Positions 2,695 to 42,130 of a DNA stretch of 64,000 bases are shown here, piece by piece. Location of the stretch: the NCBI GenBank assembly GCA_010094045.1, contig ML986658.1, positions 1 to 64,000 on the forward strand. Reading direction: 5' to 3'. How positions within the stretch are numbered: the first letter of the stretch is position 1; every line of letters begins with the position of its first letter. Under the pieces are notes generated by a model. The model ran no database searches. It was not told the origin of the DNA and saw only the letters and a list, made by a program, of their open reading frames with translations. This DNA comes from Lojkania enalia (lineage: Eukaryota; Ascomycota; Dothideomycetes; Pleosporales). Both the position numbers and the translations under genes were made by a program.

Positions 2695-5526
2695 CTACTC
2701 CTCAGGCACCTCTTGCCCAGTCCGCCAGTTTGTCAAAGGCATAGTACCACATTGCTTGACTTTCTCTCCAGTGACCTTTGCAATAATGGCCGGCTCGTTA
2801 CTCATCAGCGTCGCGGCACCGGTCTCAGTGTCATTCGCCATGAACATCTTCGGATATACGCCTTCGCGCTCATAGATGCATAGAATTGGAACATAGATGC
2901 CATCCGATGGGTCCGCGAGAACGAGTGTTGGATCTTGAGCAGCTAGGGCCGTTGAGTTTTCGCTGGGCTCAAGCAGTGCCGAGAAAACAACTGGCCAAGC
3001 CGTTTTCGGAAGTTCATCGGGCTTGTGCAGTCGCAGCCGGCTGACACCATCATTTTGAATAGTATCCAGGTAGCCATGGAACATTCTACCTAGAGAATCA
3101 CCGAGGGTGATGGTGCCAGACTCATCCGACGCGAACCATCCGGACCACTCCTGCTCTTTGACGTTGGTTGGGACTTTCGCTTCTGGAACAGCATACACAT
3201 TGCCGTTAGGCGAGTAGCGGATGTGCACGCTGCCATCAGGATTGCCCATGGAAGTGTAAATGCCGCCATCGAAGGTGGTGTTGCCGAGGGAAGAGGGAGG
3301 GGACGGGAAGCTTGGCGCCCTCTTATTCCAAACTGGTAATGAACGTCGCTGAGGGCCAATTCTAGGACTAGTTAGATCTGGAAAAATGCTGGATGGAAAA
3401 AAAGGACTTACGTAATGCATTGGTCGAACGTTGGGCCTTCGAAGGTCGTGAGGGTGAAGCTTTTCTCCAGTTTGGCAAGGACGAAATCAACGGAGACTTC
3501 ATGCGTAAAGCCAAGTTCGATTTCCACGCCCTTGCAGTCTCCAGTGAACTGAGTGCCATTCAGACCGAATTCGGCTTCTGTAGATGCAGTGATCGCCAGT
3601 CTAGGTTTGTTGACAAGACCAGCAGAAGCTTCAAATTTGCCGTTAAGAACGTCCACACCGACAGCAAGCTTAAAAGAGAGGAACACTCCGGTGCTAATCG
3701 CAAGCTTTCCATCAGCCTCGAAGACTGGCTGAATGTCAGGCACAAATCCAACTGCCTTGTTGTTATCATTGTCCTTAAGATCTAGGACTGCCTCGATGTT
3801 CCCCCAAGTAGCAATAGCGCCAGCAAGAAGTTTTCCAGATGCCTCAAATGTCAAGTCGAAGCCAGTTGCCAAGGATGCTGACGGGCCAATGACCAAAATG
3901 CCAGGAATGCTGAAAGGGCTGAGAGGGATGGTGACAATGCGCTTCTCGAACTCCTTCGTCTTCTCTTTCTCTACACTCGTTTCCAGTGACAAAGAGCCAG
4001 CAAATCCAAATTGAAGCGCAGCCTCCATGTTGCCCTTGATGCCAATCTCGGCCTTTTCGAGCCCCTTTCCAATACTAAACTTAAGAGCACCCCGGATCTC
4101 GAAGTCGCCGCTTGCGCCACATTCAACGCAAAAGATTTGGATATTTGCTTGAGCGTCGGGATCCTCGAATTCTAGAAGCTTAATACCACGAAGCCCATCA
4201 AAGGGGGTTTCAACGAAACCCGCATTGTTCGTCGTGTCGAAACCAACACCCTTAGTGAAGCTACGGTCAAAGGTGAAGAAATCATTTAGCTTCTCACCGA
4301 CATCTTTGGCGAAATCGACGATAGCCTCTCCAGCTTTCTTAACCACCTCAACGACCTTCTTAGCGACTTCTTTGACTTTCTTGACAACCTTCTTCGCCAG
4401 CTTCTTCAATCGGTCGCCGATCCTTCTCTTCCGGAGATTCTGTGTCGCCGACTCAGGCAGATCGCTATCCCCGAAAAAGTCATCGAGAGTGAAGTTGTAC
4501 TGTTTGAAGTTGTTGTTCATAGTCTCCATGTCTATTTGGCCGATCTGATAGTCAAGAATCTTATCGAAACTGGAGTCGCCGCTAGGATCACGCAGTGGGA
4601 TTTGTGTATTGGTTCCATTCTCAGAAGGACTTGCGCCAGGAGCATCGCTATCGACTTGGAGTCCAGAGGGATCGTTGGCAGGGTCGAAGTCACCGAATTC
4701 GATATCGTTGAGTGTGTCCTCGTCAACAGCATCGCTAAGGGGAACTGACTCTACATCACAAGTGATAGACAGCGTCTCATCGTCTCGCTCTTCTGTTTTC
4801 GCACGAAGGAATCGTCGCTCTTGGATTGCGTCCGCCCCATCCCAGCATCCCGGTGCCTCGGTGACGACGAGATAGTCGCCGTCAGGTCGGACTTCATTGT
4901 GCCAATTGTTCCATGCATACTCGTACGCGCCCTTATCCTTGAATTGCATGTTGATCTTCTTAGGGCCGTCTGTTCCTGCCTCGCAGGTGATCGACTGCAG
5001 CTGGTCACTGTTTTGAAGCTGAACGGTAGGCAATGTCATATTCGGCATGGTGAGCCAGACGATGGGTGTCTTGAGAGCCGGTTCTGAGAGTGCACGTGAG
5101 CGATATCGACTGGGTATTGGAAAGAGCCAGCTACGTACTATTTCCCATTTGAACAGAGTCGTCGGTGTACATCATCTTGCAATATTTCTCTGCTTTCAGA
5201 TTGTCGTATCGGCCTGCATCAATCCTCCAATCGCGTTTGAGAGCCAATTTCTTTGGAGACTCCCACGGGCTAGGGGTAGGAGTGGGCTTTTCATCGTTCT
5301 GACATGGGCATGGCGTCTCTGATGCATTTTCCAACGCCGAAGACGCGGTTGCCGTGGAATTGTAATGACTGTCCTTTGATTTCGTGTTCACCGCGTACTC
5401 GGGAACCACATATTCAGAGACCGCTGTCGCTGTCGAGGATATAGATGTGTCGCAAGGAGTGGGTTCACCATTAGGAAGGGAGAGAGCAATAGTACTGAAA
5501 AAAACTAAATTCAGTAACGACCGCAT
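2695..5526 (-). CDS. large secreted protein, DUF7029/DUF7223-like
   Basis: Three exons on the minus strand give 910 aa: 5526-5139, 5083-3412 and 3367-2695. The introns are 55 and 44 bp (donors GTACGT and GTAAGT) and the phases join exactly. The protein starts with a signal peptide (MRSLLNLVFFSTIALSLP). A low-complexity Ser/Thr/Pro region runs to about residue 100, then a domain begins near TPIVWLTMPNMTL with paired cysteines. An acidic linker leads to RKRR near residue 346, a Lys/Val-rich amphipathic stretch (about 346-400) and a beta-rich C-terminal half. This order resembles fungal secreted proteins annotated DUF7029 plus DUF7223; that naming is from memory and the function is unknown. The RKRR could be a Kex2/furin-like site. 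The protein is intact with no internal stop. Confidence 0.75.
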
Positions 5527-6265
5527 CTTGCTACTCGAATATAGGAAATATTAAAGAGAAAAAAAAAAGAGATTTTAGTGTGCAGTCCGAAAAGCACTTG
5601 CATCCTTCCCACCCGGCGGGACCCTACATTATAAGTAGTTTACATTGTTTGTAGTTATTCTACCTCTGTATAGGCCGCCAAAATAGTACTTTTCTTGGTC
5701 AGCTACGGGGTAGAGTAGCTGAATGTCACAGCCATCACAAGACTTCACGGAAATTCAGGTACCGGGGTTTTTGGTCCTTGCACGAGGCTTGGGCTCCTGT
5801 GCCGTTCGATCCGAGCGAGGCTCATGGCATGATTCCCCTTGGCCCGAGCGTCTTCAAGAACATTGGCAGAGCCAGACAATCCTGCAAAAGTCGTTGGAGC
5901 CAAGCATTTAAGGTGCTTGGTTGGACTTGGCCTCAGCTCGCTTGGCGCTTGCGATTTGAGGCCAAGGAGTCTAGCTGCTTCAATGGGGGCTTGGACTCAG
6001 CTTCTCGCCCTGCGGCTTTGAATTGCACGTGGTGCATCATTTAAGCTTCTCGTATTCTCTGGTGGACAGGGGTTTAGTCATAGAAGATATTCTTAGAGGT
6101 TGCACCTTATGGAAGAGTTTTAGTAGAAAATTCCAACATGGTGGTTGGTCCCTCAACGTTCATTTCTGGCAAGTACTTCCACACGGATGCAACAGGTGCG
6201 ATACAGTGACATTTCATCTCCTTTTCGTATCTTAACGATTAGTCTGAAATACCCTTGACCGCTAT
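5527..6265. other. intergenic region
   Basis: This contains the upstream region of the secreted-protein gene (A-rich run 5556-5570) and the 3' flank of the GPI-protein gene. The short plus-strand ORFs here show no recognisable domain or splice logic. Confidence 0.5.
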
Positions 6266-7235: not shown

Positions 7236-8339
7236 CGTGAATTGATATTATATTTACAGGACCAAGTGCGCGAGACGAGGACTTTTTTGAAGAGTACCAA
7301 AAGCAAACAAGACGGAAAACGGGCCCTGCGCTGATTAGAGATTGCGCTACTTGATCTGTACCAAGTGCATGACGTCTACGCCGCCACAAAGGCGACTACT
7401 AAGCACGCCGTCGCCAGCCCTCAACGCCCCATCAGTCCTCAGATGGCGAGCACTGAACGCCAATGCTCAGCCGCACCCTACTAAATATGTGCTTAAATCA
7501 ACATTTGTGAAGGCGAACCCTGTAATAGTCAGAGACTTAATCGGCCAGGTGATAATGTTTGTCGGTACCTCCGGTTGTGCTTGGCCTACAGTTCGTTCCC
7601 TTGCATTACGCTCTACACTACTGCCACTATCCAAGCTTGCCCTCAGTCGTCCAAAAAATTCTACACCAACCTTAGCAAGGGGTTCATAACTCAATCAATA
7701 GTGTCAAGATGTAAGCTCGGGTCACGTGCCTAGTCAGCTGTACAGCCCTTGACTAAGCAGTCTCATGTACTATATATTCTCCAGCCGTACCTTGACCGAG
7801 AGGTCAAGGGGCCTCATCAATACATCCATCTATACCACCCTATACAGTCTCCACCCCCCTCCTGCTTACACAAGAACATGATAATTGTCGAAACATCCTC
7901 CAGAATCGACCTATCCTGAGAAGCTCCAAGAACCCCCAATCAGTTATTTTAAGGCAGTAACTGATTTAATCGCGAATATTACGCTTTGACCTCGTCGCTA
8001 CTTTGAAGGGTCCGTCCTTCGGGCGTCGTACGGAAAGGAGAAACAAAGAGATCCCTGGAGATCCTTTTGTCACTCGCAAAAACCCATTTGTTTTAGGCCT
8101 GGCATATTTTACGAGTATTTTGATCACAATATCAAATGAAGTCCTATATAGATGTATGTCATTCATTAGGCGTATCATAGCTTGATTAGACCCTCAAAGC
8201 TGGCATGCTTCATAGTTCATTTTATTGGAGCCAAGTCAGAATCGCTGCATACTGATCCTATCCTCCCGTTTCCCTCGAATTTGAACAAAGCCATCTCCGC
8301 AGCCCTTCGCTTTGCTACAAAAATTCGACTCGATCGAGA
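7236..8339. other. intergenic region between GPI gene and peptide precursor
   Basis: Two overlapping short ORFs (7342-7689 plus, 7467-7694 minus) have no recognisable domain. A short palindromic pair lies near 7790-7812 (cttgaccgagaggtcaag). No tRNA was recognised. Confidence 0.4.
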
Positions 8340-8765
8340 TCACACATCCTCCCCTTTACCATAGAAATCTGACTCGATTGGAGATCTTTTCTCCTCCCCT
8401 TTCCCATAGAAGTCTGACTCAATTGGAGATCTCTTGTCCTCCCCTTTCCCATAGAAATCTGACTCAATTGGAGACCTCTTGTTCTCCCCTTTGCTATAGA
8501 AATCGGATTCAATAGGAGACCTCTTGTCCTCTCCTTTCCCGTAAAAGTCTGATTCTATTGGTGATCTTTTATGCACCCCTTTGCCATAGAATCCGGACTT
8601 GGTTGGGACCCGCTCGGCAATTTCAATAGTAAGAGATTCAGGCACTATGTCATATCAGATAAGGGAGCCGCGTAGTAAAAGCCTAGTATTCGTACTCAAT
8701 GGTAATGCCAAGGCGGATGTTGCCAGGGCAAAGATTATATAGGTGGCATAGTTTTGGAAACGCAT
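8340..8765 (-). CDS. Kex2-processed repeat precursor peptide (dikaritin/KexR-type RiPP precursor)
   Basis: Two minus-strand exons, 8765-8696 and 8644-8340, encode 124 aa. The 51-bp intron has donor GTACGA, branch CTGAT and acceptor ATAG; splicing removes an in-frame TGA at 8657-8655. Residues 1-20 form a clean signal peptide (FALATSALA). After a short leader, a degenerate unit (SGFYGKGVHKR) precedes five 15-residue units of form SPIESDFYGKGEDKR, starting at residues 51, 66, 81, 96 and 111. The last unit lacks KR and ends at the stop. Lys-Arg pairs at 49-50, 64-65, 79-80, 94-95 and 109-110 are Kex2 sites. Variation is limited to G/S after Tyr and D/N/E before KR. Signal peptide plus KR-separated tandem cores containing Tyr is the hallmark of UstA/PhomA/asperipin-type precursors, and two UstYa genes are adjacent. 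The product is unknown. Confidence 0.9.
8343..8603 (-). repeat. in-frame 45-bp tandem repeat array (peptide cores)
   Basis: Five 45-bp units lie at 8564-8520, 8519-8475, 8474-8430, 8429-8385 and 8384-8343 (the last without the KR codons). A diverged 39-bp unit precedes them at 8603-8565. Synonymous third-position differences between units, with nearly invariant peptide, point to selection on the encoded core rather than a very recent expansion. Confidence 0.9.
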
Positions 8766-9444
8766 GATGGGACTCTTCACTAAAGATTAATGATAGAAAA
8801 AGAAAGTTGCAAGGCTTTAAAAGATCTTGGAACAGTTGACTCGGAAATTTCTCCCTTTATAATGTACAGTTTACCTGGAATCAGCACACCATCAGCCGAT
8901 AATTGTCAGCGGGACTGCAGTTGAATGTACTATTATCTTGTATCCGGAAGGTCAGGTTCCCCGGTAAACTGCAGAAGCCGGTTACGGAAAATACAGCTAG
9001 CGGTGACGAGCGAATGAGCACTAGAATCTAATGGGTTGGTCTTCACTATTGGATCAGAAAGCGCTATCAAAACCGGTTCAAACAAATCCATACTCATATT
9101 TTCCGTTGTAAATAACCGGTAAGCCACATTTCTAATAGTTAATTCTTGCCCGATGTGGGGAAGGTGGGAAAGCACATGGCATAACTAGCTCGGCCCTATG
9201 TGGCAATTCAAATGTTCGCTAGGAGCATTTGAGTGGTTACTGTAGTGCTTATCAGCGTCAGCAACCATGCAAGAGAGCATCGAGTACGCGGTTGTCCAGG
9301 AAAATTCTGCTCCCATCAGCTTTCTCATGGATGCCTGACCTGGCTGAACTGTACGGTGATATTAAACGATATTAGATTCTGATGCCATATCTTCACGCAG
9401 GCCCGCGCGATATATTTCCAATATTATCAAAGAGTTTTATCATC
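8766..9444. promoter_or_regulatory. divergent promoter region of the RiPP locus with repeated CCGG motifs
   Basis: This 679-bp region separates the precursor (minus) from the first oxidase gene (plus). Four related motifs lie within 165 bp: ccggtaaa at 8961, gccggtta at 8978, aaccggtt at 9071 and aaccggta at 9114. CGG-containing palindromes are typical targets of Zn2Cys6 regulators; assignment to this locus is inference. A TATA-like ATAAAG lies about 100 bp upstream of the precursor ATG. The 80-codon minus-strand ORF 8933-9175 inside it has no recognisable domain and is probably chance. Confidence 0.4.
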
Positions 9445-10506
9445 ATGCCCTCCAATCCAGAATATTTGCCGGTTGAGCAGCGAGAACTGGACTCCAACGA
9501 CCTCCAATACTCGAAACTACTCGATGAGGAGAATCCAGAACCAAAATCATCCCGTTTATACCTCCTTGAGAGACTTAAATACCCGATATTGTGTATCACA
9601 GCAGTCAATTTTTGTATTCTGGTTTTATCAACAACCCTCTTTATATCATCTTATAGGTCACGGTCAGACGCACTTCTAGGGTTGCAGTACGCTAGAGAAG
9701 AGAATCGTCATTTCGCTGATCACTGCAATGAAAGAACTGGAACCTACTGTAAGTGTGGTCTTGTCTTCAAAGTATACACCTAACTCCGAATCAGCACCTG
9801 CATGGGAGGCGATCCAGTACAAGACCGTTGAATTCGCGGGAACTTTTGATTTGCAAAACGTATACAAAGGAACGCCGCGTCCAGAGCTTGATGAAGCATG
9901 GGATGCGCTCATACATGGTATGCGGAGATCTGCATTTCAGGAAGCATTCTGACATTTCTATAGGAGGTAACTTTGCCATTGATGAAGACGCAATGCATCG
10001 CATCAACAAATCGCACAACCTCGAGTATGCAGTTAAGTTTCCAGAAGAAACTGGAGGCGGGTATGTCGCAGGGTTAGAAATGTTTCATCAAATGCATTGT
10101 GTGAATTTCCTTCGTCAATACACATACCGTGAGTATTACGAGAATGATATCCAGGCGTTCACGGATGGCCCGGAACTCCTCAGGTTACATCTAGGTCGGT
10201 AGTCTCTTACATGTTTAGATATGTTAACTTGCTGATGGGAATCAAGATCACTGCATTGATATGCTCCGGCAGGTTGTCATGTGTTATGCGGATACGACAC
10301 TTCTAACCGGTGTTTGGGTCAAAGGGTATCCCAGGCTATCAGCGGACTTCAATACTCAGCACAAATGCCGAGATTACGAAGCATTGAAAGATTGGAATAA
10401 GAAACATGCAGATAGACCAGAAAGTTATAGTCATATCAGGAAACCTGAAGGGGCAAAGGAAATGGAAATGCCTTCGTGGGTTGCTTTGCAGGAAGATGGA
10501 TACTGA
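9445..10506 (+). CDS. UstYa-family (DUF3328) oxidase 1
   Basis: Four exons, 9445-9748, 9795-9917, 9964-10194 and 10247-10506, give 305 aa. Introns of 46, 46 and 52 bp have CTAAC, CTGAC and CTGAT branch points and all phases agree. A cytosolic N-terminus is followed by one transmembrane helix (about 47-68) and a lumenal domain beginning SPAWEAIQY. The two family-defining HxxHC motifs are present: HQMHC at 184-188 and HLDHC at 218-222, the latter completed only after splicing exons 3 and 4. UstYa proteins act in the secretory pathway on Kex2-released core peptides, forming oxidative crosslinks in ustiloxin-, phomopsin- and asperipin-type peptides. Divergent adjacency to the repeat precursor supports this role. 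The start at 9445 (MPSNPEYLPVEQ) is preferred to 9382 because it gives the usual short cytosolic tail. Confidence 0.9.
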
Positions 10507-11208
10507 CAGGGATATGCACCGTACTCGCGGTAGCTTGAGCATCCTAGAACTGATGAACTTTATTGGCTACAAGATGCGTTCATTGTGGAAACACGCCGCA
10601 ATACGTTATAGATTCGTGATATCTACCTATGCCGTGGGTCAAGCCGATAGGTGTTAGGATTAAGTTTAAGTCTTTCAAACAAGCACCACGGGCCAGAATC
10701 AAGCTCTGAACGGCCTAAAACTATGTCTTACGCTATTAGGATGCTGGTCCACATCATGCATATGCAACCAATTGATAAAAGGCATTCCCCACCTCTGCAA
10801 TGATGCTGACGCTATCATAAATTAAGCTTACGACGAATTCGGGCAACTTCAACGGGGATTGCAGATCTCTAAAGGAGATATTACCGAGTTTAGAGATATA
10901 GAGGGACTTTCTAGCTTCGGCCGAACCGTTTCGCGTTCCAGGCGATGCCGTGGTAATTGCCTTCAACATCTTATTTGCCCGGGTGTATGCACAAACCGTC
11001 TGTCAGCAAAGACCCATTAAAGCCACAAGTGCTGCTTATTGAATGATGCTACAAGTAGAAAGAGCCGAGTTGTTGGGTAACACTACGTGGCCATAATGTA
11101 CGTGACACTGAGCAGAGCACCTCAACACTCGGGAACCGAATTGCGAGGTATTTTCCTTAGCAATATCCCTTGAAACTTCTTTAATTGTATCACTTTCTTA
11201 ACGTCATT
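10507..11208. other. intergenic region between the two UstYa genes
   Basis: This holds the 3' flank of oxidase 1 and the upstream region of oxidase 2. Short ORFs on both strands (for example 10754-10969 minus) show no domain. Confidence 0.5.
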
Positions 11209-12281
11209 ATGGAGACTAGATATGTCCTGCAGAGTAACGACGCCCGTTTTTCTGCGGATGAACACACACCATCTCCGTCAGAGTATGCTAGTGAGATGCA
11301 AGAAAACTTTGAAAGTTTTAAGGGCTTGAAATCACCTAGGCTTAGGAACAAGAACAGGAGTATTCATGTTTTGTGGCTTACAAATGTCGTGCTGGTGACT
11401 TTGTTGTTTTGGTCCCTATTACAAAAAAGAGATTCTGATCCCACGCTAGCACTTTTCTGTGAGTATCCCGAACATATACATTGTATAAAACTGATTTCTC
11501 TTGGGTAGCTCCAGCAAACCATGTCGTTCGGTATCGGACCGTTGTCTTCGATAGCTTTAGGAATGAAAGGACACCTTACATGCCTCCCGAAGAAGGCGGT
11601 GTTCCCAATGATGATACCGATATGGCGTGGGAGGATCTCTACAAAGGTGAGAGGAACAGGATTTTCAGCTGAAGGATTGTAATTGATGAATGATAGCCGG
11701 AATCAGTCGCGTGCCCAAAAGCGATGCTACCAAACTTGTGAACTGGACGGTTCCGATTCCAGGAGACCAGGACCACTATATCGTAATGCTCGATGTTTTC
11801 CATCAACTTCATTGCCTTGTATGTGGTTTCGAATGCCATGGGAAAATAGTTTTCTAATATCTCGTAGAACATCATCCGCCGGGCGCTATATCCCGAGCGC
11901 TATCACATGCAAATGTGGGATGGCCACCACCTTCGCCCTATTGACAACGAGCATCTTGGTAAGAAAAATTTCAAAACTAGATATTTTGTGCATCTTTGTT
12001 CCGTCGTATTGACTAATATTATCAAAGAACATTGCGTCGATAGTATACGACAACTTATTACCTGCCACTCAGATATAAGCACACATTATTGGCGATGGGA
12101 GGATTGGCACAAACATCCAGGCTCCCGTGTATATTCGCAGACGACTCACACTTGTCGTAATTTCGAGAAGATACAGGAATGGGCTATTGAGCATCGTCTT
12201 CGTGACTTCGACTTCTTCACCAAGGCAAGCAACGAGATACATCCAGAAAATGGGGTAAGAGTCGGAGAGACAGTGTATTAG
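11209..12281 (+). CDS. UstYa-family (DUF3328) oxidase 2
   Basis: Five exons, 11209-11458, 11509-11646, 11697-11818, 11868-11958 and 12028-12281, give 284 aa with consistent phases. Donors include GTGAGT, GTGAGA, GTATGT and GTAAGA, and introns 1, 3 and 4 show CTGAT, CTAAT and CTAAT branch points. A single transmembrane helix lies at about 52-71. The lumenal part starts SPANHVVRYRTVVF and carries both family motifs, HQLHC near residue 165 and HLEHC near 199, the second assembled across intron 4. The C-terminus contains THTCRNFEKIQEWAIEH, matching the C..Y/F....W signature also seen in oxidase 1 (HKCRDYEALKDWNKKH). It differs strongly from oxidase 1, so the pair is not a recent tandem duplication. 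Paired UstYa paralogues are common in dikaritin clusters. Confidence 0.88.
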
Positions 12282-12699: not shown

Positions 12700-13550
12700 A
12701 GTCTCTCTGCAGCGGCTGCAGCGTGTAGAAGCATGCCGGCTCGCACCTTACCTTGACGTATTTCGCCATCTAGCTGCTGCTTAACCCCCTTTTGAGCAAT
12801 AATCTTCTCTCCCTCTACCTTTAATAAGGTACCTTGCTTCTGAAACCACTGCTCTTTGTGCTGTTTACATGTTGTGACAGCCTTATTTGCTCTCTTAAGG
12901 CTAGCGATTTTGACCCTTCAGCTGAATGAAGCATTACTTCAACGCCTTTTTTAGGCTAATCAATTGCTGCAATAATAGAGGCAGGTAATAAGCTCTTATA
13001 CCTTCAAATCAGATCACAAATTAATTTTGATTGAGCTTTTGATTCGCGCTAGTTACTTGGTGTTTTAGCTTCCTATTTGAGGACCTCTAGTGCAGGCAGT
13101 GTTGGCGTACGAAGCTTCACATCAAGCTTTAATATCACTACCTCTGGATTATATAGAACTAAACTAGCGCCTTGAAAGCTTGCGCAGACAATATCCTTAC
13201 AGATTGCCTGGAATTCGAGCGAGTTATGGCTCTTATAGCCATCTCTAGCCAACCTACCCAGCGCCGCGCTCAGTAAGCAGCTTATCCGCCATATCTCGTA
13301 CAGTACCTAGAGAGGATGCAAAACCTCGCGAATCTAGGTCGAATATATGCCCAAGAACAATCCCCTCTTCTATCTTAGAAAGCTTCCTTGATTTGGGCTG
13401 GCAATCGCGTTGAGTAGCAAGTCCGGCGCGTCGGTTACGGAGCGTAGTTTCGGGGATGTTAAATACTGTTGCAGCGCATTTTACACTTTGTATCTGGCTA
13501 GAGTTGATAGCTGAGCTAGTAAGGAAGATACTTGCATCTTTATAGGACAA
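12700..13550 (-). mobile_element. pogo/Fot-type DNA transposon relic, DDE core deleted
   Basis: The minus-strand frame 13550-13254 encodes the N-terminal HTH part of a pogo-type transposase (AAT.FNIPETTLRNRRAG, then RKLSKIEEGIVLGHIFDLDSRGF and VRDMADKLL). Immediately after, the reading jumps to typical C-terminal sequence (SLEFQAICKDIV, FQGASLVLYNPEVVILKLDVKLRTPTLPA), then a Lys/Arg/Gln-rich tail with many stops down to about 12700. The CENP-B/DDE catalytic centre between these parts is absent, so the copy is internally deleted and non-autonomous. Terminal inverted repeats were not identified. Confidence 0.7.
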
Positions 13551-13650
13551 TTGAATTGCTGTTGGCGGAGCTATAGTAGTTGGAAGTTAATGCGGTGCGA
13601 AAAGTTGGTGAGTGTACGGCTTCCCCGCGTCTCACTTGCTAGTTACTTAT

Positions 13651-15804: not shown

Positions 15805-17344
15805 TTAAACATAGTTCCCTATCTGTCGTTCTAATGGCTCCGTGACCGGTTCATAACCAGTGTGACTCCTACGTTTTCGAATGCAAGACAGTATCAACCA
15901 ACTCCCCCATGCTGACGTAAATAATGCAATCAAACTCACTGCTATGCCTACTACTACGACTACAACCACACTACTTCTTTCTTCCATTCTTTTACTTTCC
16001 ATGTTAACCGGCTCCACTAATAGTTAACTGTTAGATAGATCCATATATTAGACGCCGTGCAAACTTACACAAAATTACCCTCTCTTCAAGATCAAAAACA
16101 GTCCTAAAGTTCTCCCAGAATGGAAAGCCGAGCTCTACATCGTTATCTTCCCCACGCCATACGCCTGCGCGACAAGCATCGTAGTCCCCGGTATCACCGT
16201 CACCCATATCATCGTGTGGTGGGATATGCACCACGAATGTGTACTGATATGCATCGAGGGTAATCTTCTGCCCTCCTATTCCGATTGTAAAGTCCGGAAG
16301 CTCGTCGCGTGCTTCGCAGGGAATCCCTACCCATGGCCAGAGCATAGTGATATTCACATTTATCTTAGATAGTATCTCATCAATGAAAGGCTTTGGAAGG
16401 ACTACTGCGGGTGTAGTTGAGGAAAAGTATGCGCTCGCATTCACAAAATTGTGGTGGATATCTCCAAAGCTCAAGCTTTCAAGGCTGACCCCCCAATGAT
16501 ATGGTGCAAATTGCAGCGGGAGGTGAATACTGTTCTCTTCATCAAAGTTATCGGGAACATCACCAAGTATCAATTCCCCATTAGTTCTTGGCTCAGACAA
16601 GGGATACCTCTTGCCCTGAGGCAGCACAATAGAAAAGATCTTCCTATTCAACGCTCCTGATGCCGCAATTCCCTGCCAAGCACTAGGAACATGGGGGAGA
16701 TTGTTTGTATATGGTGGGGCGAGCCCCAATGCGCCGTCGTAATCGTTATACCAATTTAAAAACCCGATCGATCGCGCATGCTTGACCTCAAGGAAAGATT
16801 GGTTCGCTACCGCGAGACCACCGATGTTTAGTGTGTCTTGAGCAATCCAACCATCAAAGATGACGCCTTCGTAGGCGAGTTCCAAGGATTCACGGCTAGG
16901 AACGTAGGTAGAGGAGGCTGAGGCGTCGAAGTGCATGTGGTGTTCGCAGACGTAGTCCTCGCAGTCCGTAGACGGAATGAAAAGGGTGTTCCATTGAAGG
17001 TCGAGAGCCATTTTGAAGATCTGAGGTGGGGTGCCCATGAATACGTGTACTGCGTACATGAAAATAGCTGCATCCTTCGTCGCTGTCATTATAAGTTTCT
17101 ACTACTTTGATAGAAATTGCCATACTTCGATTGGAAGACGGAAAGGTCCTTTGTCAAGAATTCCCGGCGGTGTCTGCGAGGCCTCTATAGGATTTTTGTA
17201 GTAATTCTTAATCTATTAGAATGGGATTGTTATCCAATGGGTCTCATGCCTTACGGTTCTTTGGACAAACTCCTCGTTTTGCGTCGGACTCGCGACACCC
17301 GAGGCAAATGTAGCTGCTACCAAGAAAATTGAAAATAAGATCAT
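15805..17344 (-). CDS. membrane-tethered pepsin-like (A1) protein lacking catalytic DTG motifs
   Basis: Exon 1, 17344-17255, carries a signal peptide (MILFSIFLVAATFASG). The main exon, 17098-16069, has the A1 fold (YAVHVFMGTPPQ, then LDLQWNTLFIPSTDC, DTLNIGG, DGALGLAP, GELILGDV). A 52-bp intron (GTAAGT, branch CTAAC) leads to the last exon, 16016-15805, with a transmembrane helix and a basic cytosolic tail. Total about 443 aa. Where pepsins have DTGS the protein reads DLQW, and where the second DTG is expected it reads AVVLPKPF. It is therefore probably proteolytically inactive. The intron after exon 1 (17254-17099) is unusually long (156 bp). Part of it (about 17182-17109) reads as plausible coding sequence ending at TAGTAG, so the 5' structure is uncertain. 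Confidence 0.75.
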
Positions 17345-19588: not shown

Positions 19589-21655
19589 TCACATTTTCAG
19601 CGAAATCGAGACCTCCCTTAAATTGGTGAGGCACCCATTTTGTGCGAATAAAACATTACGCATCCATACCGCGGATATGATACCTCTAGAGCCGGAGAAC
19701 CAGTCGAATGGTACGAAGAAGTGGCGTAAGAACTGAATCGTGGTCTCATAAATTTGGTCGAGTGCAATGGAGCAAACCCAAGAATGTCTGTCGAGGAAGA
19801 CGAGCCTAGGGCCATCTGATATACCGATAACATGGGAGACGCGGCTGAGGAAGTGGGAGGGCAATCTTGCGGCTCTTGGGATGATTAAAGCATGTTCAAT
19901 GCTGGTTTGGTCGAACTGTGGGGCGGGCCCAACTATTTCGGAACCTATGGGACCTATTTCCAAAAATTGTAGGCTGCTTGTATTGGCACCGCCGTGAAGC
20001 TCTGATAGCTCTAAAAGAAGGTAAGGGCAACGGTTTATGGTGTACGGCACAATGATTTTCATCTGAAGACCCACTACATCAATGGGCAGTCGTATGCTTA
20101 CGATTTGGGACCAGTCAGCCCAAGTATATATGCCAACGACTGAGCCATCGGTGCAGATAACGTGGTCTTGTGATTTTGGGTGCTGAATCCATTTTCGAAC
20201 ACTAGGGGCATTGTAACTTAACCTAGCACGTTCACGAGGCCCTTCAAAATCCCAGAGGTGGTCAGATTCCCGTGTTGAGAGAATGAATTTACCAGTCGTG
20301 GGCTGAGCAAGTAGTTGAGTAATAGTATTTCCACCATCAAGACGAATATTAAATATTTGCTTCCCAGGCGCGGGGGCTTTATGAGATGGCCTCTGAAGGC
20401 TCCATGCTAGTATCGAATTCGATTCATCAACGCTCATAATATCGGTTTTTGACCAAGCCGCTAGGACGTGAACTTTCGATTTGTGGCGATAAACAAGGGC
20501 CAATTCATTTCCGTTGTCTAAATCATGCACGGTGACCGAACCATCTGTCTTGCCGCAGAAGATGTGCCCGTGCACGTGATCGAGAAGCACGGCACTTACC
20601 CTGACCTTGATATCTGATACGGCTGTTTCAACAAAAGATGCCGGCGCAATAGGAATGTCCCAAACGATAGATGCCCTACGCAATGCTGCAGGTTCCCAAA
20701 CATTGCATTGTGAACCGCGGATATCAACAAAGTGAAGACTATCCCTGCTGAAGTCCAGCTGCTTGATGTACAGATTAGAGGACTTCACTCTATACACTAG
20801 TCGCAGGGACTCAAATCCGTATATATCAATGATTCCAGAACCAGCAGCACCTGCAATCAAACGCCCATCTGGACTAGCCGCTAGCTTGGGACAATTTGCG
20901 CGGACAGTCGCAAGAGTTAAATCGCTAAATGGATCAAAGAGAACGAGTTCGCCGTCTAGATAAGATGCTACGAGGAGCTCGAGGGCCGGATTGGGATTGA
21001 AAACAAGTGATGTCACAAGATGTCGACTAGTCTCACCACTTCCAAGCTTCTTTCCACAGCTTCCGTAATATGAGTCATTTTCGAGATCCCACAGAATTAT
21101 AGGTCTCCATGGGTATGAAACAGCCAGCATACTGTGTCCCAGAGATATCGAGATAGCGGATGGTGGCCGGCGATGTTGGCTGTCTGCCCATTCGTCACCG
21201 GGGGTCCATGGCCTATCCGGTCCTCGTTCTCCATCTTCGTTGAGTTTCCAATATGCCAGGTAGTTCTTGTCACAAGCCGCAATCAGAGAGCCCTTTCCAT
21301 ATGCAAGGCAGATACATCGCTGTGGCGATTGAAACGAGCATCTTGGTTTACCATGGGATATATCCCAAACTCGGATGATCCTAGGCCCACAGGATGCGAT
21401 CAGTCCTGATCTATCTATGAAGAGTAGAAGATTCACGGGCTCGCCATGGTCTAATGTCTTGTATTCTTGACCGCTCACAGCATGATAAAGTGCAACTAGC
21501 CCATTAGATAGGCCGACGGCGAAATAGTCTTCACCGTGACAGACGGCACTAGTCTGCGAACGGAATTCAATGCATGACAAGCGATTTCCCCATTCAGCAT
21601 TTGCGAAGCCGGCAATTGCAAGAGCTCGTCCGGGTTGAGCAGTTTTGAAGATTGC
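19589..21655 (-). pseudogene. WD40/quinoprotein C-terminal domain of a NACHT-WD40 protein, detached
   Basis: A long open frame without stops (663 codons from TTG at 21580, open further upstream through AEWGNRLSCIEF) encodes WD40-like blades: SQTSAVCHGEDYFAVGLSNG, IIRVWDI, ILWDLEND and others. It ends with the RHFFVPFDWF region that usually closes these proteins. Such WGNRL...CHGEDYFAVGLS sequences normally form the C-terminal sensor half of fungal NACHT-STAND proteins. There is no ATG, NACHT or effector domain upstream, because the region runs head-on into the deaminase gene. The frame is intact, so the truncation is recent or the fragment is still expressed. Confidence 0.6.
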
Positions 21656-22149
21656 TGAATTTGTTGGGCCTTTCCCCTCCCGGCTCTGACAAGTTCTGTG
21701 TTGGCGCAGTACTTGCTAATGGCGACACAGGCGAAATTCTATCAACAGGATACTCAATCGAGCTACCAGGCTATATGGAAGGCGACTCTGGGAGCACACA
21801 CGCAGAGCAGTGCTGTTTCATCAAGATTGCTCAAAAGCACGGGCTTCCAGCAGTGCGTGCAGAAGAGCATATCGCTAATCTCCTTCCAAACAACACGGTT
21901 CTCTACACCACCATGGAACCTTGCAATGCGAGACTCAGTGGTAACCGAACATGCTGTGATAGGATTGTGGCCTTGAAAAGTAAGCTAAGAACGGTATACG
22001 TGGGCATCCGTGAACCAAACACCTTTATTGTCGACAATGACAGCAAGAAAAGGCTGGAGGAGGCCGGATTCGGTTTTGAAATGGTCGAAGGCACCCAGGG
22101 GCTCTGTTATGAAGCTGCAATGAATGGCCATGAAAACAAAAGCGAATAG
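21652..22149 (+). CDS. CMP/dCMP-type zinc deaminase (DRAP-deaminase-like), 5' end missing or unresolved
   Basis: The frame encodes about 165 aa of a cytidine/deoxycytidylate deaminase-fold protein. FCVGAVL precedes the zinc-binding THAEQCC, and TTMEPCNARLSGNRTCCDR supplies the PCxxC-type ligands and the SGN typical of pyrimidine/riboflavin-pathway deaminases. A C-terminal VYVGIREPNTF matches the family. The frame opens with TTG; no in-frame ATG occurs before codon 42, and family members normally have about ten more residues starting with Met. The missing start lies where the oppositely oriented WD40 fragment begins, so a rearrangement may have removed it. An upstream exon is the alternative. 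Confidence 0.65.
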   Translation: MLNLLGLSPPGSDKFCVGAVLANGDTGEILSTGYSIELPGYMEGDSGSTHAEQCCFIKIAQKHGLPAVRAEEHIANLLPNNTVLYTTMEPCNARLSGNRTCCDRIVALKSKLRTVYVGIREPNTFIVDNDSKKRLEEAGFGFEMVEGTQGLCYEAAMNGHENKSE

Positions 22150-29269: not shown

Positions 29270-31469
29270 GGTTATAAGCCCTCAGCCGCACTTCCGGCCT
29301 GTAGCAAATTAGATTGATTATTATATCGATCCCTAGCTTACTATTACTAACTAATAGGTAGCCTAATAGCAGCACCTAGTTAACTAACCGAGCTTAGCTC
29401 GCGCCACCAATATAGGACGCGACACTATCACAGCAGACTATAAGGGAGTTATAAACCTAGTAAAGGATGGCAAGAACATTTTACTATAGGAAGCCGCCTT
29501 ACGAAACCAAGTCGTTGGTAAGGCTGCTGAGGATATCCTGGAAGGAGTATCTCCACCACCCAAGCCCAGCAAGCCGATATATTAGAACCTACTACCGCGT
29601 CCAGATAATATAGAGTTATAGGTAATAAGACTTACCTAGTAAAGCAATTTTGAGAATATTCGACGCACTAATAATGCCTATAAGGTATAATATAACTAAT
29701 AGTAGAAGGACTACTGCAACTATATTAAGAAGGAAGCTTTTATTATAAGTATTCTACTTGCTATAGTTTACTAAGAAACACTTAAAGGTCTATACTTATA
29801 TAAGATAGTAGAAGTACTCTTAGATACTATCCTTAAGTACTATAAAGAGTAAGGTTTTATAGAGGAATATACCCTTTAGGCTAATTTCTTTAGCTTATAT
29901 AGTAATTACTATAATAGTATATTTTAATTTACTAGTAAATTTAAAGCTAGTTTTATATAATTAGATAATATTAATCTTAAGCCTAGTTCTAAGAGTATTA
30001 TATTCTAGTTTATTATTACTATTAAAAATTAATTTAAAACCTACGTATAATAATAGTATTAAATTTTATATTAAAGTAGAGTTCTAGATATTAATACTAT
30101 AATTAACGAGATTAATAATAAATTATATTAAAAGAATCTAGTTAAAAAGGTAATAGTATTTTAAGTATAGCTAAAAGATATATAGTAGCCTAGTAGTAAT
30201 TAGTATAAAGGTAAGAGTAAGAGTAATACTAAAACTAGAAGTAAACCTACTAATAGTAAGCTTATAGAAAGAAGGTACTATCCTAGCTACTAATATAAAT
30301 ATCTAGAGGGTAGATTAAACTACTAGTTTATATATCTAGAGAAGGTATTAAAATAATTTTTTAATAAATACCTAGAATTAGTATAAAAATTAATCTAATT
30401 AGCTTAATTAAACTATATATTATTAGCTAATTTTAGTACTATTATTAGTATATTAATAAGTAGCTATAATACTTAGGTCTTATTAATACCGCGATATATA
30501 ATTAAGTAAATACTATAGAGGCCCTATAAGAATTAAATTATTTTTAATACTAGAACTAACAAGTATATATATAATAATAGGACTAAGTTTATCTTAATAG
30601 GATAATCTAGTATAGAATATATAAAAATAGATAGTAGTCTTACTAAAGTAGAAGGTAAAGGTATAATATAGCTTTATATTTCTCTAGCTAGTAGTAGTAC
30701 TATCGATATATACTTTATAAAAGTACTATACTATCTAAGTTTCTATATCTCTATTATCTTTCTAGATTAGCTTTAACTAAAAGAACTGTACTATTATAGT
30801 CTCTATTAGAAGCTACTATATATTAAGGATGATAGTAAGATTGTCTACGTTCCTAAGATTAATAGAATACCTACTTTTTTTAAGTATATAGACGAGGTAT
30901 AAGTAGCTTTCTTAATAGCCTATATTACTATATTCTCTTTCTAAGACTTATAGCTAGCTTAAAAGTAAGAGATTATCTTATAAGAAGCTTATAAAATCTG
31001 AGGCTATATAAATCTAGACGATTTAAAGCAGCTATTTAAGACTATTAATAGCTTAAAGCTTAAAAATACTAAGAAGTTTAACTATAAGATATACTATAAG
31101 ATAAAAGATTATTAATAGATTTCTTATACTCTATAATATTAAGTTTAGTAAGTATTTAATATTATATATCTTAATATTATTAGTTATATCTTATTACCAG
31201 GTCTTAATAGAAAGTAATACTAGTTATTTCTTATAGACGATTTTATATACTATTAATAGATTTACTTTATTAAATCCTGTATAGAAATTACCCAAATACT
31301 ACTTAATTTTAATAGAATAGTTACTACCTAGTATAATAAGATTATTAAGGTCTATTATCTTAATAATAACAAATACTTTATTAATTAGGTAACTATTAAA
31401 TATTTTAAGAAGTAGGGAATATAGTTATAGCTTTTAATACTATATATAGTATACTAGAACAGTGTTACT

Positions 31470-31729
31470 TATAATAATACAAAGAAATCGTTCTACGAAA
31501 AGCTTTATCTTTTCGCTTATCTTATCCTACCCCCAGTTCTACCCCTTTTCCCATCTATATATAGTTATATACTCTCTTATAAGTAGCTTAGTAGTTTTTC
31601 TATATCCTTTTATATAAGGTTTATAGGTGTTAATAGAATTTTTAGGTCTCTAATCCCCTATATACTCCTATATACTTTTAAGTAGATTCGTGCTATATTT
31701 AGACCTATTATCTTACTTATACCGTTATA
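31470..31729 (+). repeat. 5' LTR of Gypsy-1
   Basis: 260 bp, tataataata...ttata. The presumed TG..CA ends are mutated to TA..TA. Confidence 0.9.
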
Positions 31730-34700
31730 TTATATAGAAAAACTTAATACTACTAGTAACAGCCTCTTTAATAATATTATATCGATTGTTTATTTAACTA
31801 CGTCTAAGTCTAAAATATACCCGATTTAGTTTAGATTATAATACTTATATACTATTATATTAAATTATTTAGTTATCTAGATAGGATCTTAAAGATCTTC
31901 TATTAACCGAAGCCTTTAAGTTTAGAACTTTCTATCCCCTACGATTAGAATTGCTTTTAGAAAAGCCGCGTAGAGTATATTTAGGTAGAAACTCGGAGAC
32001 TACTAATAACCTATTAGAATTAGAGGTAACCGCTAATATCTAACTATAATTTACCTTCTAATTCCTATACTAGAATTAATACACGCGTAAGTTGTAGTAA
32101 AAGTAAGCTTCTATCTACGCGTGTAGAACAACTGTTACCTTTTATAGGGGGCCCTGCGACAGGCGGACCCCTCTTTATAAAACTGGTAGTAAAGAACCTA
32201 TCTAATTCGGAGGGAAATTAGAGTAAACTAACCTTTAAGAAATAAATCGCAATTTTATAAGAGGAGATTATATGCTTAATATAATAGAGAACTATTAGTT
32301 CTAATTAACCTCTATAAACTACCGAATTAGTACTAATAATATACTAAGAAACTTTTATAACTTCCCCAGCAAGAAACTTCTTAGCTATCCCTAAACCCCT
32401 TTAAGCCTACCTTACTAAATATATACCTAAGATTAAAAGCCTTATAGATAGTAATAAACCTATATTTAAATAATAACAAGCCTTAATCCTAGACTAACTT
32501 AAGATTAATATAGATTACTATTAGATAGAGCGTGTATATATAGTATTAGTATAAGAACACACCTCTAGTACTGCGAAAGGGTATCTAGAGCTAAAATACC
32601 TAGCTAAATCAGACTAGTATCGGTTTAAGAATACTAAAGAAATGATTTTACTTCTACAATTATATTTTATTATAGGTAATAAAGAGATAGAGGCGTAATA
32701 GGCGTTTCAGGTCCTAAAGATAAATAAGAGAGAAGTATTCTCAACTTTTAAAGCTCGCTTTATTAGTATAGCTATTAGAGGATCCATATCCTAATCTAAG
32801 TAGTTCTTCTACCTATAGGATAAGATTCTCCCTAGCCTGAGGATACTAAACCTTAGCTTTAAGCTTATATAGAAAGGCTCCTTTAATACTATAGTCACCT
32901 ACTTAACAGCCTACAATATAGAAAGGAGAAACATTCCTAACCTTCTAGAACAAACTACTAGCCTATAGGTTACAGCTAAAATAAATTCGGATTAGTACTA
33001 GAAGGCTTCTAAAAGTTTATCTAAAGTAACCTATAATCTAATACTACCCCGATTAACCCTAGTATTAACACCTTATTCTACTATAATTACTCCCTAATAA
33101 CCTAGTAAAACTCCCGCATCTAAAAGATATACGACTCTAAGTAATTACTATAATTATAGTAAACTAGAATACTTTATAAACAAATATATAGTCCTTAAAA
33201 TATAAGAAATAGAGGTTAAATAAGAGGAGATTAAGGAAGAAGAGTTCTTAGACGTAAATAAGTATTACCTAGATAGTTCTCGGGTGGGAAATAGAGACGC
33301 CTAAGAAAACTCTCCGTCCTAGGCTTAAGTAAGTACGATTTATTAAACATTAATTTATTATATTTATTTAGAGGAAAGTACTTTTAAATCTCTACTATTC
33401 TATATTTAAAAGGTGTTAGTATACAACTAAACGCCTTTATTAATATTAATACCTAAGGCTTCCTATTTCTTAATTTTATAGTAGCTAGATCGCTCTTCTA
33501 AGCCCTATATATATTAATATAGTATTTACCCTTTAAAATTACTATTAAAGGTTTTTAGAATTAAATCTAAACCCTAGTTAATTAGTATATCTACTTACAC
33601 CTATAAATTAATAGGAGAACTATTTAAAACTACCTATTTATTATTATAGACCTAAGTACTTAGGATTATATTATTAGTATTAAATAGTTACGTTACTTTC
33701 AACTCCAGCTAGATATAGATAAGAATTAGATTATATAGCCCTCTAAGTATTCTGCTACTTATAATCTATTACCTCCTCTTCTTATATAATTAACTCAGCT
33801 AGTATATAATAAGAAGGTAAAGCTAGATATTTAGTAACACGACGCTCTATAGGAAAAGAACTAGTATTAATAGTCTTGTAGTCTAACTATCTATTATATT
33901 AAAGGTTTATTAAGACTACTAAAACTATATTAATCTTCTATAGCCTATAGTCTAAATAAGTTTAGAGCTCCTATACGCCTATATATAATAAAGTCTAAAT
34001 CTAATCTAAAGAAAACCCGCTCTTCTATTATTACTCTTATTATAGCTAATACTTTCTACTTTAATATAAAGAGGAAAGAGAACGAGTTTTTCTCTACATC
34101 TCTATACGAAATCGAGCGGCTAATTAAAAATAAGCAAGCCCTAGAGCTGGAAGATAAAGCTGAAAACGAAATACTAGTAAATCTCTAATTACTATCTAAA
34201 TACTATAGGTATTAGAATATATTTAGTAAAACTGCGGCTTATTAATTACTAGAATACTACTCTTACAATTATAAGATTATCCTTATAGAACCCCTCTCTA
34301 ATAGTTACAGCCTGTTATATAAATAGAATGTTAAGGAGCTAGAGGTAACTAAGAAGTATATTATAGATAATCTATAGAATAGGTATATTAAGTAGAGTTT
34401 AAACTCTTTTATATCTCTAATCTTATACGTTTATAAACCTAATAGTAACTTATATATCTATATAGATTATTATAAACTTAATACTCTTACCTATAAGAAT
34501 ATATATCCGATACTGCGTATAGATAAACTCTTATCTAGGCCTACTAAAGTAGTAATCTTTACTAAGTTTAATATTCGCGCAGCCTTTAATAAGATTAAAA
34601 TAGACTCTAGTTCTAAGAAATATACTACCTTTCAGACTCGATATAAAACCTATAAGTATAAAGTTCTACCTTTTAGATTATATAATAGCCTAGTAACTTA

Positions 34701-35626
34701 CTAGTACTATATAAATAATATACTAATTAACTACCTAGATAACTTCTATATTACTTACCTAGATAATATTCTTATCTACTCTAAAGACGAGGTAATATAC
34801 GCTATCTATATTAAGAAAGTTCTTAAGAGATTACGTTAAGTAGGGTTATAAGTTGATATTAAAAAGAGCGAATTCTATATTACCCGAACTAAATACCTTA
34901 GCTATATCCTCTTAAATAAAAGCCTTAAGGTTAACCTAGAAAAGGTAGAAGTACTATATAACTAGCAGCTACCTACTACTATAACGGGTGTAAAATCCTT
35001 CTTAAGTTTTACTAAATTCTATTAATAGTTTATACCAGAATTCTCGCATATCGCAAAGCTAATTATTATACTATAGAGTCCTATAACTTCTTTTATATAG
35101 ATTTTAGAATGTAATATTACCTTTAAGAAATTAAAGTCAGCCCTATTAAGTATACTTATACTCTACTACTTTAACCCTATATTAGAAACAAAAATAGAAA
35201 CTAATACCTCTAATAGAGTAGTTGCAGGAGTACTATTATAGAAACATTCTAACGGAAAATAGTACCCTGTAATATTCTATAGTAAAGTTCTATCTAGTTT
35301 AGAACTAAACTAGAAGATTTATAATAAGGAACTATTCACAATTATTACTACGTTTAAATAATAGAGGGTAGAACTTACTTTAGTAGCTACTAGGACTCTA
35401 GTATATACTAATTATCACTTACTTAAATATTTTATAACTATAAAAGTACTTAATACTTATTAAATTTATTAGACTAAGAAATTAGCTTAGTATTAGTTTC
35501 GAATTAAGTATACCCTAGATAAGAATAATACTAGAGTAGATATCCTTAGTTATTACGAATAAGATATAGAAAATTTAAAAGTAGCTTAAACTAATAACTA
35601 GTTAAGAGTTCTATTTAAACTGTATT

Positions 35627-35993
35627 TATTATAGACACCCCTGTAGGAACCCCTATACTAGACCTAATTAAGACCTAGGATTCTATATAGCTAGAAGAAT
35701 AAGGCTAATACGAGGCACGTAACGCGCTTAGTAACTTAGTCTACTAAGCTACTAAGTATACTCAGTAACTCAGTTAACTGAATAACTAAGTAAGAAAATA
35801 ATAAGGGAACTAAATTGTATTTAACAACCTTACAACTCTAATCTTTATAGCTCTTTATAGTTAATTTAAATATCCTTATATACTCTACTTACGTACTTCT
35901 ATTATAAGTCTATAAGAATAATATACCTCGCAGCATATAATTACCCTTAATTATTACCCGCCCTATAACTAGCCTTTAAGACAGGCCTTTATA
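35627..35993 (+). repeat. 5' LTR of Gypsy-2
   Basis: 367 bp starting tattatagac and ending ctttata. It includes an internal cluster of short cttagtaa/ctaagta palindromic units near 35728-35795. Confidence 0.9.
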
Positions 35994-38900
35994 CTTTAAC
36001 TACCCTCATAAAGCTAGAAGAAGTGAAACTAGTTAGACTACCCTGGTTATAAGGAAAAGAGATACCTTTGGTAAGTAACGTAGGAAACTCACGCAAGTAG
36101 AATGTTGGGATTAGCTAGTAAAGCTACCTCTTCAGAGGCAGGTATAATAACTATATTTATAAGAATGCAGAACGAATTAGTATAATAATAAGAACAGCTA
36201 GTTCTAGTAGATAAATAGATAAGAAGTCTAAAGGAGACTTAAGACAGCCTTCTTAAAAGTCTTAAAGGAATATAAGGAATAGTTAATAGTAAATAAGAAA
36301 TGGGACTTGCGGGAATTATCTAAAAACTCGAATAAGTTGAAAGAGTATTACTAACAATGTATTACTAATAATAAATTAAACTAGTACTACTTAATAAATT
36401 TAACAGAACTAGGTCCAAGCTTAAAGGATTCCTAGTAGTAGTAAGGATCTACATTAACGCTAACCTTAATATTATCTAATATAAGAACGAGAAAGTACTA
36501 TTTATAGGAGTATATTTAACAGGTAAACTACTCGACTAGTTCTAGTCCTTTCTAATAGATTTTAAGAACTATGCGGAGGAATACTAGAAGAGTAAAACTA
36601 AGGTAATATTTATAAGTCTAGTATACTTCTAATAGAAACTTGAACTAGTGTTTAGAGATATTAATAAAGTACGAGTAGTAGAAGACAGACTTTATAACCT
36701 AGTTTAACTAGAATCTATTACCTTATATATATTAAGCTTTTAATAGCTCTCGAATAAAGTCGCCTAGAACAACTATAGTATAATAGTAAAGTTCTGTAGA
36801 GAACTAAAAATAGAAATAAGAAGAGTAATAATGTATATAGAGCAACTGTAGGACCTAGCGTTATACTTCTAACTAGCGAAGAGAATTAACGACGAACTAT
36901 ACTAGTTTAAAAATAAGGAAAGATAAGTATACTATTAAAGAGTATACTTTTTAGTAAGGGCTGCCGACGCGGGTGGACCTATAGATCTGAGCGCTACTAG
37001 GGAAAAGAAGTCTAAACTATAGGCGACTTAAGAAAAGAAGACTTAGAAAAAAGATATTAAGTATTATAATTATTAAAAACTAGAATATATAGTAAAGGAA
37101 TATCGAAGTAAAAAGAAAGAAAAGAAAAACTAGCCTATAGAAGATAAACCGCAGGAAGCAGGTAAAGAAAAACTAGCTGTAACTATAGAATATAGAACCT
37201 CGTATTAGTCTTTCTATAATAAAGACAAGTATTAGATATACTAACAACTTAAAGAAGCTATAGGATATTAGCTTTAGAAGAAAATATAACTTACAGCAAT
37301 ATAGGAACGTATAAAAAGATAGCTAGAAGAAGTTTAAGAAATATTAGATAAGGATAAAGAAATAAACACCCTATTATAAATAGAAGAAGCTACTACTAGA
37401 GCACTAATACCTAAACCAGTACTTAGAGCATATTCTATATACCGATAAGGAATAATCGAGTATAAATAGGGAACCCCGGCTCTTATAGCTACCCTATAAG
37501 AAAAACTACCTATAAGATTCTATAATAAAAATAGACTAGGATAAGATATTATCGACGTTTACGAAGAATAGTAAAACACCTACCCTAGGGAAATCCGCTT
37601 CTCACACTTCCAAAAATAGATAGAAACTACGAAGGTAGTAGAAGGACACCTTAATATAATAGACTGAGATAAGGCTATATATATAGTATAGAAAGTAGTA
37701 GTTTTCTTATAAAGTAAAGTACTAGTAAAATACTAGGTACTAAAAGCATCGCGATATAAATAAGAATAGGACTACTAAGTTAGAGAAAATAATAACTCTT
37801 ATATAAACTAATACTACCTAGTACATTTTAAAATAGTATAGATATCGTGTATTAAACGATAATATAAAACCTACTAAGGAAGAAAGGAGAGTATAGGTAT
37901 ATAGCTAAGACAATTAAACGAAGACGAAGTACTAGAAAACTTTATAAAGTAAGAAGCTATAATAGAATAGGAAGTTATTAAACAAACCTAAAACTATATA
38001 GTACTTGAACCTGGACCTCTATTACCTAAAGTATGCGTTAGAGGAAGGCTATAGTATAAATGCCTAGAATAGAAGTATCTAAAATATATATCTATAAAAA
38101 AAGTAATAGCTTACTAGCCTAAGACAACTTAGTTGTATAGAAATATAGGAGAATACTACCTCACAATACCCGGACGGTACCACAGCTATAAAGTATATAT
38201 ACTCATCAACAGTAGAGTAATAAAAAATTTTATAGCTAGTAACTATATTACTAGAAAAGGAATACTTATAATACAACTAGAACGACCTTATATAATTTAA
38301 ACGATAGAAGGGAAAGACTTCTAGAAGAAAGTTATATATATTACAGAACTAGAAGAGTTTAAAATTCCAGGAACAACCTAATAAGGACAAATATTCTAAA
38401 TTATAGAGATTACCAACTATAATATTATCCTAGGAATCCTATAGTTAAGAAAAGAAAACCCTTAGATAAATTAGTAAACGGGACGAATCATCCTTAAAAA
38501 CTTGGGTTAACTAATTAAGGAACAACTCGCTGTAATAGTAAAAGAAGTAGTAAAAGAATTATTCCTAATAGGAAACGCATTATATAGCATACCTAAAGAA
38601 TACTAACATTTGATAAAACAGCTCTAAGAACTACTATAATACCTACCTAAATACGGAGAATACGATTATAAAATTAAACTATAACCAGGAAAAGAACCTA
38701 GATACGGACTAATATATAGCCTAATACTAAGAGAAATAGAGGCTCTAGAACAATATATAGACGAATACCTAAAGAAAGGAATAATTAGAGAATTAAACTT
38801 ACTAGTAGTATACCCTATACTCTTCGTAGATAAAAAAGGAACGACTAACCTACGAATATATATTAATTATCGCACCCTTAACAACATTATAATTAAGGAC

Positions 38901-41900: not shown

Positions 41901-42130
41901 TTCTTATCTACCTTATAAGTTAACCCCTTATAAGAATACCGGGAATAAGGTATAATTGTTTTACCTAAACAGTCTATACGATCCGTATAATAGTATCTAT
42001 TTAGAGTTAAATAACGAAGAGAAAATATTAGGAATATATATAGTCTCAGTAAAAACAGCGTACTAACCCTACTATATACTAGTTTAGAACGGGAAAACTC
42101 TCGGGCTGAGAGCTTAAAGGAGGAAGGTAG

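Follow-up and report, generated by a model that had tools for sequence, protein, structure and literature searches.

A probable minimal dikaritin-type locus in Lojkania enalia: a Kex2-processed repeat protein gene beside two genes for UstYa homologues

Results

Lojkania enalia is a dothideomycete of the Pleosporales, in which its genus stands incertae sedis; no mention of the species was found in the open-access literature searched. We analyzed a stretch of 64,000 nucleotides of its genome (assembly GCA_010094045.1, contig ML986658.1, forward strand; in the following “the window”). It carries three adjoining genes that most probably constitute a minimal dikaritin-type (ust-RiPS) locus with a cross-linked product: one gene for a Kex2-processed repeat protein (KEP), i.e. 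the putative precursor of a ribosomally synthesized and post-translationally modified peptide (RiPP), and two genes for UstYa-type oxidases, here designated U1 and U2. Dikaritins are RiPPs that derive from a KEP and are cyclized by UstYa homologues (PMC10512285; here and below, published work is cited for passages of the respective text), and indeed a KEP gene accompanied by UstYa genes is present. The precursor gene (8340..8765, minus strand) and U1 (9445..10506, plus strand) are transcribed divergently from start codons 679 bp apart, and U2 (11210..12281, plus strand) follows U1 after a gap of 703 bp. An earlier reading made from the letters of the same DNA (the sequence-only reading) had placed the precursor divergent from two UstYa genes, which is borne out by strands and coordinates. 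Its assignment of a dikaritin-type RiPP cluster holds for the defining gene set, KEP plus UstYa homologues; cross-linking, cyclization and the exact core are what we infer beyond it. Judged from sequence, the kind of locus, i.e. Kex2-processed repeat protein plus UstYa oxidases, is well supported, while its product is unproven. The 679-bp region between the divergent genes (8766..9444), presumed to act as a shared promoter, contains two matches to CGG-N13-CCG starting at 8945 and 8962, as found by a pattern search that carries no chance estimate.

The repeat array is located in a minus-strand open frame (8654-8340) lacking a methionine of its own. Gene models were enumerated, either unspliced or with one GT-AG intron of 40–150 nt, using ATGs within 8300-9444. 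Two models reach the array, but only the one with an intron at 8695-8645 joins a hydrophobic leader to it. Accordingly, the gene probably consists of exon 1 (8765-8696), a predicted GT..AG intron of 51 nt (8645..8695, GTACGA...ACATAG) and exon 2 (8644-8340). The resulting protein of 124 aa starts with a hydrophobic leader (MRFQNYATYIIFALATSALA) with an A-x-A end; a short pro-region follows and then six units of 13 residues with five Lys-Arg (KR) sites between them. The published criteria for KEPs demand a signal peptide and three or more tandem repeats, each 8 to 100 aa long, between KR, RR, KK or RK sites (PMC7329392). With six units, a period of 15 residues and five KR sites, and with a leader that is a putative signal peptide by hydropathy and by eye, the predicted anatomy of the precursor fits these criteria. 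The spliced 124-aa precursor with six FY-containing units split by Lys-Arg, as proposed in the sequence-only reading, was thus recovered, albeit with less regularity: the first unit is degenerate and not preceded by a dibasic site, and the last one ends in DV-stop without KR.

The array (8343..8609, minus strand) contains six units of 15 codons (14 in the last) with the consensus SPIESDFYGKGED-KR. At the DNA level, Tandem Repeats Finder reported it as a repeat with a period of 45 bp and 5.4 copies over 8347-8591 (score 315). Units 2–6, each of which starts with SP, are nearly identical to SPIESDFYGKGED; Ser replaces Gly9 in one unit, and Asp13 is replaced by Asn in one unit and by Glu in another. 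In unit 1 (VPTKSGFYGKGVH), 6 of the 13 residues deviate from the consensus, all of them outside positions 7–11, so that FYGKG is kept; the chance of this conservation is 0.016 for this very window if named beforehand and 0.11 for any five-residue window. Pro2, Ser5, Phe7, Tyr8, Lys10 and Gly11 are invariant in 6/6 units, all of which therefore contain Phe and Tyr, and FY[G/S]KG is the most constant stretch of the unit. Among units 2–6 we counted 0.65 changes per synonymous site versus 0.043 per replacement site, corresponding to a ratio pN/pS of 0.066 (0.18 when all six units are included), which means that the unit copies diverged in DNA while the peptide was kept. When the changes of units 2–6 were placed at random on their consensus, as few replaced codons were obtained in none of 20,000 trials. 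Taken together, the repeat units are under strong protein-level constraint, i.e. purifying selection, which argues that the array is a gene and not satellite DNA.

U1 and U2 were both recognized by the Pfam family UstYa (PF11807), with 211.3 bits (E 2.2e-62) and 167.2 bits (E 6.7e-49), respectively, against a curated cut-off of 25 bits. U1 is encoded by four exons (9445-9748, 9795-9917, 9964-10194, 10247-10506) forming a spliced frame of 305 aa, and U2 by five exons (11210-11458, 11509-11646, 11697-11818, 11868-11958, 12028-12281) forming one of 284 aa. Each protein has a single strongly hydrophobic stretch near the N-terminus (around residues 49–67 in U1 and 52–70 in U2) and two HxxHC motifs, namely HQMHC at 184 and HLDHC at 218 in U1 and HQLHC at 165 and HLEHC at 199 in U2. 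Two intact multi-exon UstYa genes with two HxxHC motifs each, as claimed previously, are thereby confirmed. In an alignment of the public U2 protein with 64 family members, five of the six His and Cys residues of the two motifs do not vary; the exception is the initial His of the second motif, with at least 90% conservation. Along 255 residues, U2 and the public L. enalia protein CC78DRAFT_356142 are identical; this entry agrees with the splice junctions and differs from the 284-aa model only by its start at Met30. The longer model begins at an upstream ATG in the same frame (11210) and thereby gains 29 residues (11210-11296) ahead of the hydrophobic stretch. For U1, eight database matches at 40–47% identity were obtained, and none of them is identical. 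Genes resembling U1 and U2 occur in Cadophora, Penicillium crustosum, Trichoderma, Rhizodiscina and Thozetella. U1 and U2 share 28% identity and fall into different clades of a tree with 68 rows, which were hand-picked from the matches and include no member recognized as characterized; recent tandem duplication as the origin of the pair is thereby ruled out. Comparison of the structure model of U2 with solved structures gave no convincing match, and a sequence search among them revealed no credible relative either, so that these searches provide no structural template for the UstYa family.

Uniqueness of the array was addressed by scanning the window and 20 stretches of 10 kb (264 kb in total) for repeat proteins. 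The array, with a self-identity of 0.93 at period 15, was the sole match at a threshold of 0.55, while the same DNA reversed gave none; at looser thresholds the best match in reversed DNA reached 0.50. At the loosest threshold of 0.3, there were 15 matches versus 21 in reversed DNA, and the scan has therefore no power for imperfect repeats. PF11807 has 25 exon-level matches in the genome, five of which fall into the present locus. The 20 stretches represent UstYa loci on 9 of 14 other contigs with such matches, and no comparable Lys-Arg repeat protein was found in them, with contig C2 being covered on one side only and with arrays interrupted by an intron or by the end of a stretch able to escape. 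Hence, among the loci examined, where imperfect repeats could escape, only the present one shows a clear KEP-UstYa pair.

Relatives of the precursor were sought as well. Among about 5.8 billion proteins no significant relative was returned (there was one candidate, which was non-significant) by a search that needs exact shared words of five residues, so that distant precursor relatives may escape it. A motif pattern and protein searches revealed no second copy in the 58-Mb genome, and the precursor, array included, has no Pfam match. The sequence-only reading had suggested comparing the core with sequence collections and had named membership of the repeat in a non-RiPP family as a result that would speak against it; the searches returned neither a significant relative nor such a family. 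Its statement that the core was not recognized among characterized dikaritins agrees with the literature search, as FYGKG occurs in the open-access papers searched only in ones with unrelated titles, a scope that excludes subscription papers and the supplementary tables of PMC7329392. The unit sequence is therefore new as far as searched, which is common for these loci. In a published survey, 2,560 of all KEPs have no homologue (PMC7329392). The attribute “hidden” given to the cluster applies in part, since neither the precursor nor U1 was found in the protein database searched, but U2 was already publicly annotated.

The surroundings were inspected by a Pfam scan of 21 further open frames, a subset of the frames in the window. 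As base 1 of the window is also base 1 of its contig (C81), only 8 kb are visible on the far side of the precursor gene. A gene with DUF7029 and DUF7223 matches, probably multi-exon, lies to its left (2695-5550, minus strand), and four frames tried at 6.2–7.7 kb gave nothing over the Pfam cut-off. To the right of the UstYa genes, a frame at 13254-13586 (minus strand) has an HTH_psq match below cut-off and is perhaps a transposase remnant. An aspartyl protease-like frame (16031-17098, minus strand; Pfam Asp, E 2.8e-32) follows 3.75 kb past U2; on visual inspection, its catalytic DTG motifs do not seem to be preserved in their usual form. WD40 repeats, a deaminase, a fructosamine kinase and an amino-acid permease are encoded further right. 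The deaminase frame (21649-22149, plus strand) matches Inv-AAD, an invertebrate AID/APOBEC-like deaminase family, with E 3.7e-49 in this fungus, and overlaps the upstream end of the opposite-strand WD40-repeat frame (19589-21715). The block from 30000 to 48000 is AT-rich (22–32% GC), contains a reverse-transcriptase match below cut-off (34396-34704) and has the appearance of a decayed transposon region, on which repeat-induced point mutation may have acted.

Discussion

The locus described here is typical of a widespread class, in which an orphan KEP gene beside two UstYa genes is an expected form. A survey detected 7,878 KEPs in 1,345 of 1,461 strains; where a KEP gene is accompanied by UstYa genes, these number 1.7 on average (PMC7329392), in line with the two found here. 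Nine such clusters are described in Venturia inaequalis (PMC9632046), and 111 genomes of lichen fungi yielded a total of 987 RiPP clusters (PMC12048977).

Asperipin-2a of Aspergillus flavus (aprA, aprY, aprT, aprR) resembles the present case in its FY-containing core, its UstYa-type oxidase and its small cluster, and the passages of PMC6514808 name no tyrosinase among the four genes, just as no tyrosinase match occurs on the contig of the window. However, the core is FYYTGY there and FY[G/S]KG here, there is one UstYa there and two here, and the transporter and isoflavone-reductase-like genes of that cluster have no recognized counterpart among the frames scanned. Asperipin-2a, whose formation requires the UstYa homologue AprY, contains ethers between Tyr side chains and beta-carbons (PMC6514808). 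Without a tyrosinase, similar chemistry would be expected at the present locus. Ustiloxin B (ustA, ustYa, ustYb, ustQ and others) shares with the present locus the two UstYa homologues and core flanks with ED and KR, which here appear as GED-KR in two units and as GEN-KR and GEE-KR in two more (PMC6514808). The Tyr-x-x-Gly spacing is also common to both, YAIG there and Y[G/S]KG here. In ustiloxin, Tyr and Ile at residues 1 and 3 of YAIG are joined (PMC7329392), whereas the third position is Lys here. The ustiloxin cluster further differs by the tyrosinase UstQ and by its 15 genes including a methyltransferase, flavin-containing monooxygenases and a pyridoxal phosphate-dependent enzyme (PMC10512285, PMC6514808). 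Phomopsins, epichloecyclins and victorin are likewise dikaritins with repetitive Kex2-type precursors and UstYa homologues (PMC10512285, PMC9233826), but have other cores and other accessory genes (PMC9233826, PMC6514808).

By comparison with these systems, the leader would send the precursor into the secretory pathway, where a Kex2-type protease encoded elsewhere would cut after the five Lys-Arg sites and carboxypeptidases would trim KR. One match to the Kex2-type P_proprotein domain is found in the genome, on contig C125. The site pattern suggests release of 13-residue peptides of the form SPIESDFYGKGED, which recalls the ustiloxin precursor, thought to be cut by Kex2 to trideca- or tetradecapeptides that are then cyclized by UstYa, UstYb and the tyrosinase (PMC6514808). 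The two membrane-anchored UstYa oxidases, with a metal presumably held by the double HxxHC motifs, would then cross-link the aromatic core FY[G/S]KG oxidatively, most likely at Tyr and either before or after trimming of the flanks, and the product would be secreted. As Y-[G/S]-K-G has the spacing of Y-A-I-G in ustiloxin, Lys10 is a candidate partner of Tyr8, with Phe7 as alternative. By analogy, and as a rather unlikely proposal in this exact form, the two UstYa enzymes might, without a tyrosinase, join the phenol oxygen of Tyr to the beta-carbon of Lys two residues on, yielding a small charged cyclophane or, with Phe, a bicycle. A Tyr-Lys cross-link by the UstYa family is not described in the literature passages searched, which may miss recent UstYa chemistry.

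Several points weigh against a functional dikaritin locus. The protein database searched yielded no entry for the precursor or for U1, so that no annotation pipeline backs either model. The conservation of FYGKG in unit 1 gives a hint of the core, though a weak one if taken by itself. No transporter, methyltransferase, reductase or tyrosinase was recognized near the genes among the 21 frames scanned with Pfam. None of the 25 PF00264 (tyrosinase) matches of the genome falls on the contig of the window, with 8 kb beyond the precursor covered, and the tyrosinase within the cluster that marks the ustiloxin/phomopsin subgroup was thus not found. The nearest recognized neighbours are the DUF7029/DUF7223 protein and the aspartyl protease-like frame, which may or may not belong to the locus.

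The repeat protein could instead give rise to linear, unmodified secreted peptides resembling pheromones, hormones or effectors, with the UstYa genes acting on another substrate. Such KEPs (alpha-factor-like pheromones, repellents, effectors) have a signal peptide, tandem units and Kex2 sites, as does the precursor, whose signal peptide is putative; 6,120 of the 7,878 surveyed KEPs have no UstYa gene nearby, mating factors are linear (PMC7329392), and the cross-link is deduced here from the genes. This scenario is nevertheless quite unlikely in view of the two directly adjoining UstYa genes and their divergent arrangement. KEPs of the mating-factor and pheromone type lack UstYa neighbours with three exceptions in the passages of PMC7329392. 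Moreover, the unit contains Tyr, which is more frequent in KEPs with UstYa neighbours, at 65.6% of repeats versus 38.2% (PMC7329392). Pheromone precursors carry a run of XA/XP dipeptides after their Kex2 sites (PMC7329392); no such run follows KR here, although units 2–6 begin with SP. Alternatively, the genes might be a decayed or silent remnant of a larger dikaritin cluster that makes no product, given that the group is short, has no recognized accessory genes among the frames scanned and lies near transposon-like traces (13254-13586 and the AT-rich 30–48 kb block). This is very improbable: all three spliced frames and the HxxHC residues are intact, the repeat units are under purifying selection, and the asperipin cluster, with four genes, is of similar size. 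Finally, a non-coding satellite or a part of an unrelated structural protein family, as a 45-bp tandem repeat might suggest, can be dismissed almost with certainty on account of the synonymous/replacement pattern and the lack of any Pfam match or other motif-pattern or protein match in the 58-Mb genome.

We therefore favour the reading as a minimal dikaritin-type locus. Few UstYa-made peptides have been characterized, five by a 2022 count of dikaritins (PMC10512285), compared to 1,758 KEP genes with UstYa neighbours (PMC7329392). That the precursor and U1 seem to be missing from the protein database searched suggests that surveys built on annotated proteins may miss precursors. With three genes, a core that is short and well conserved, and no tyrosinase match in its vicinity, the locus would offer a convenient test of what UstYa enzymes can do alone.

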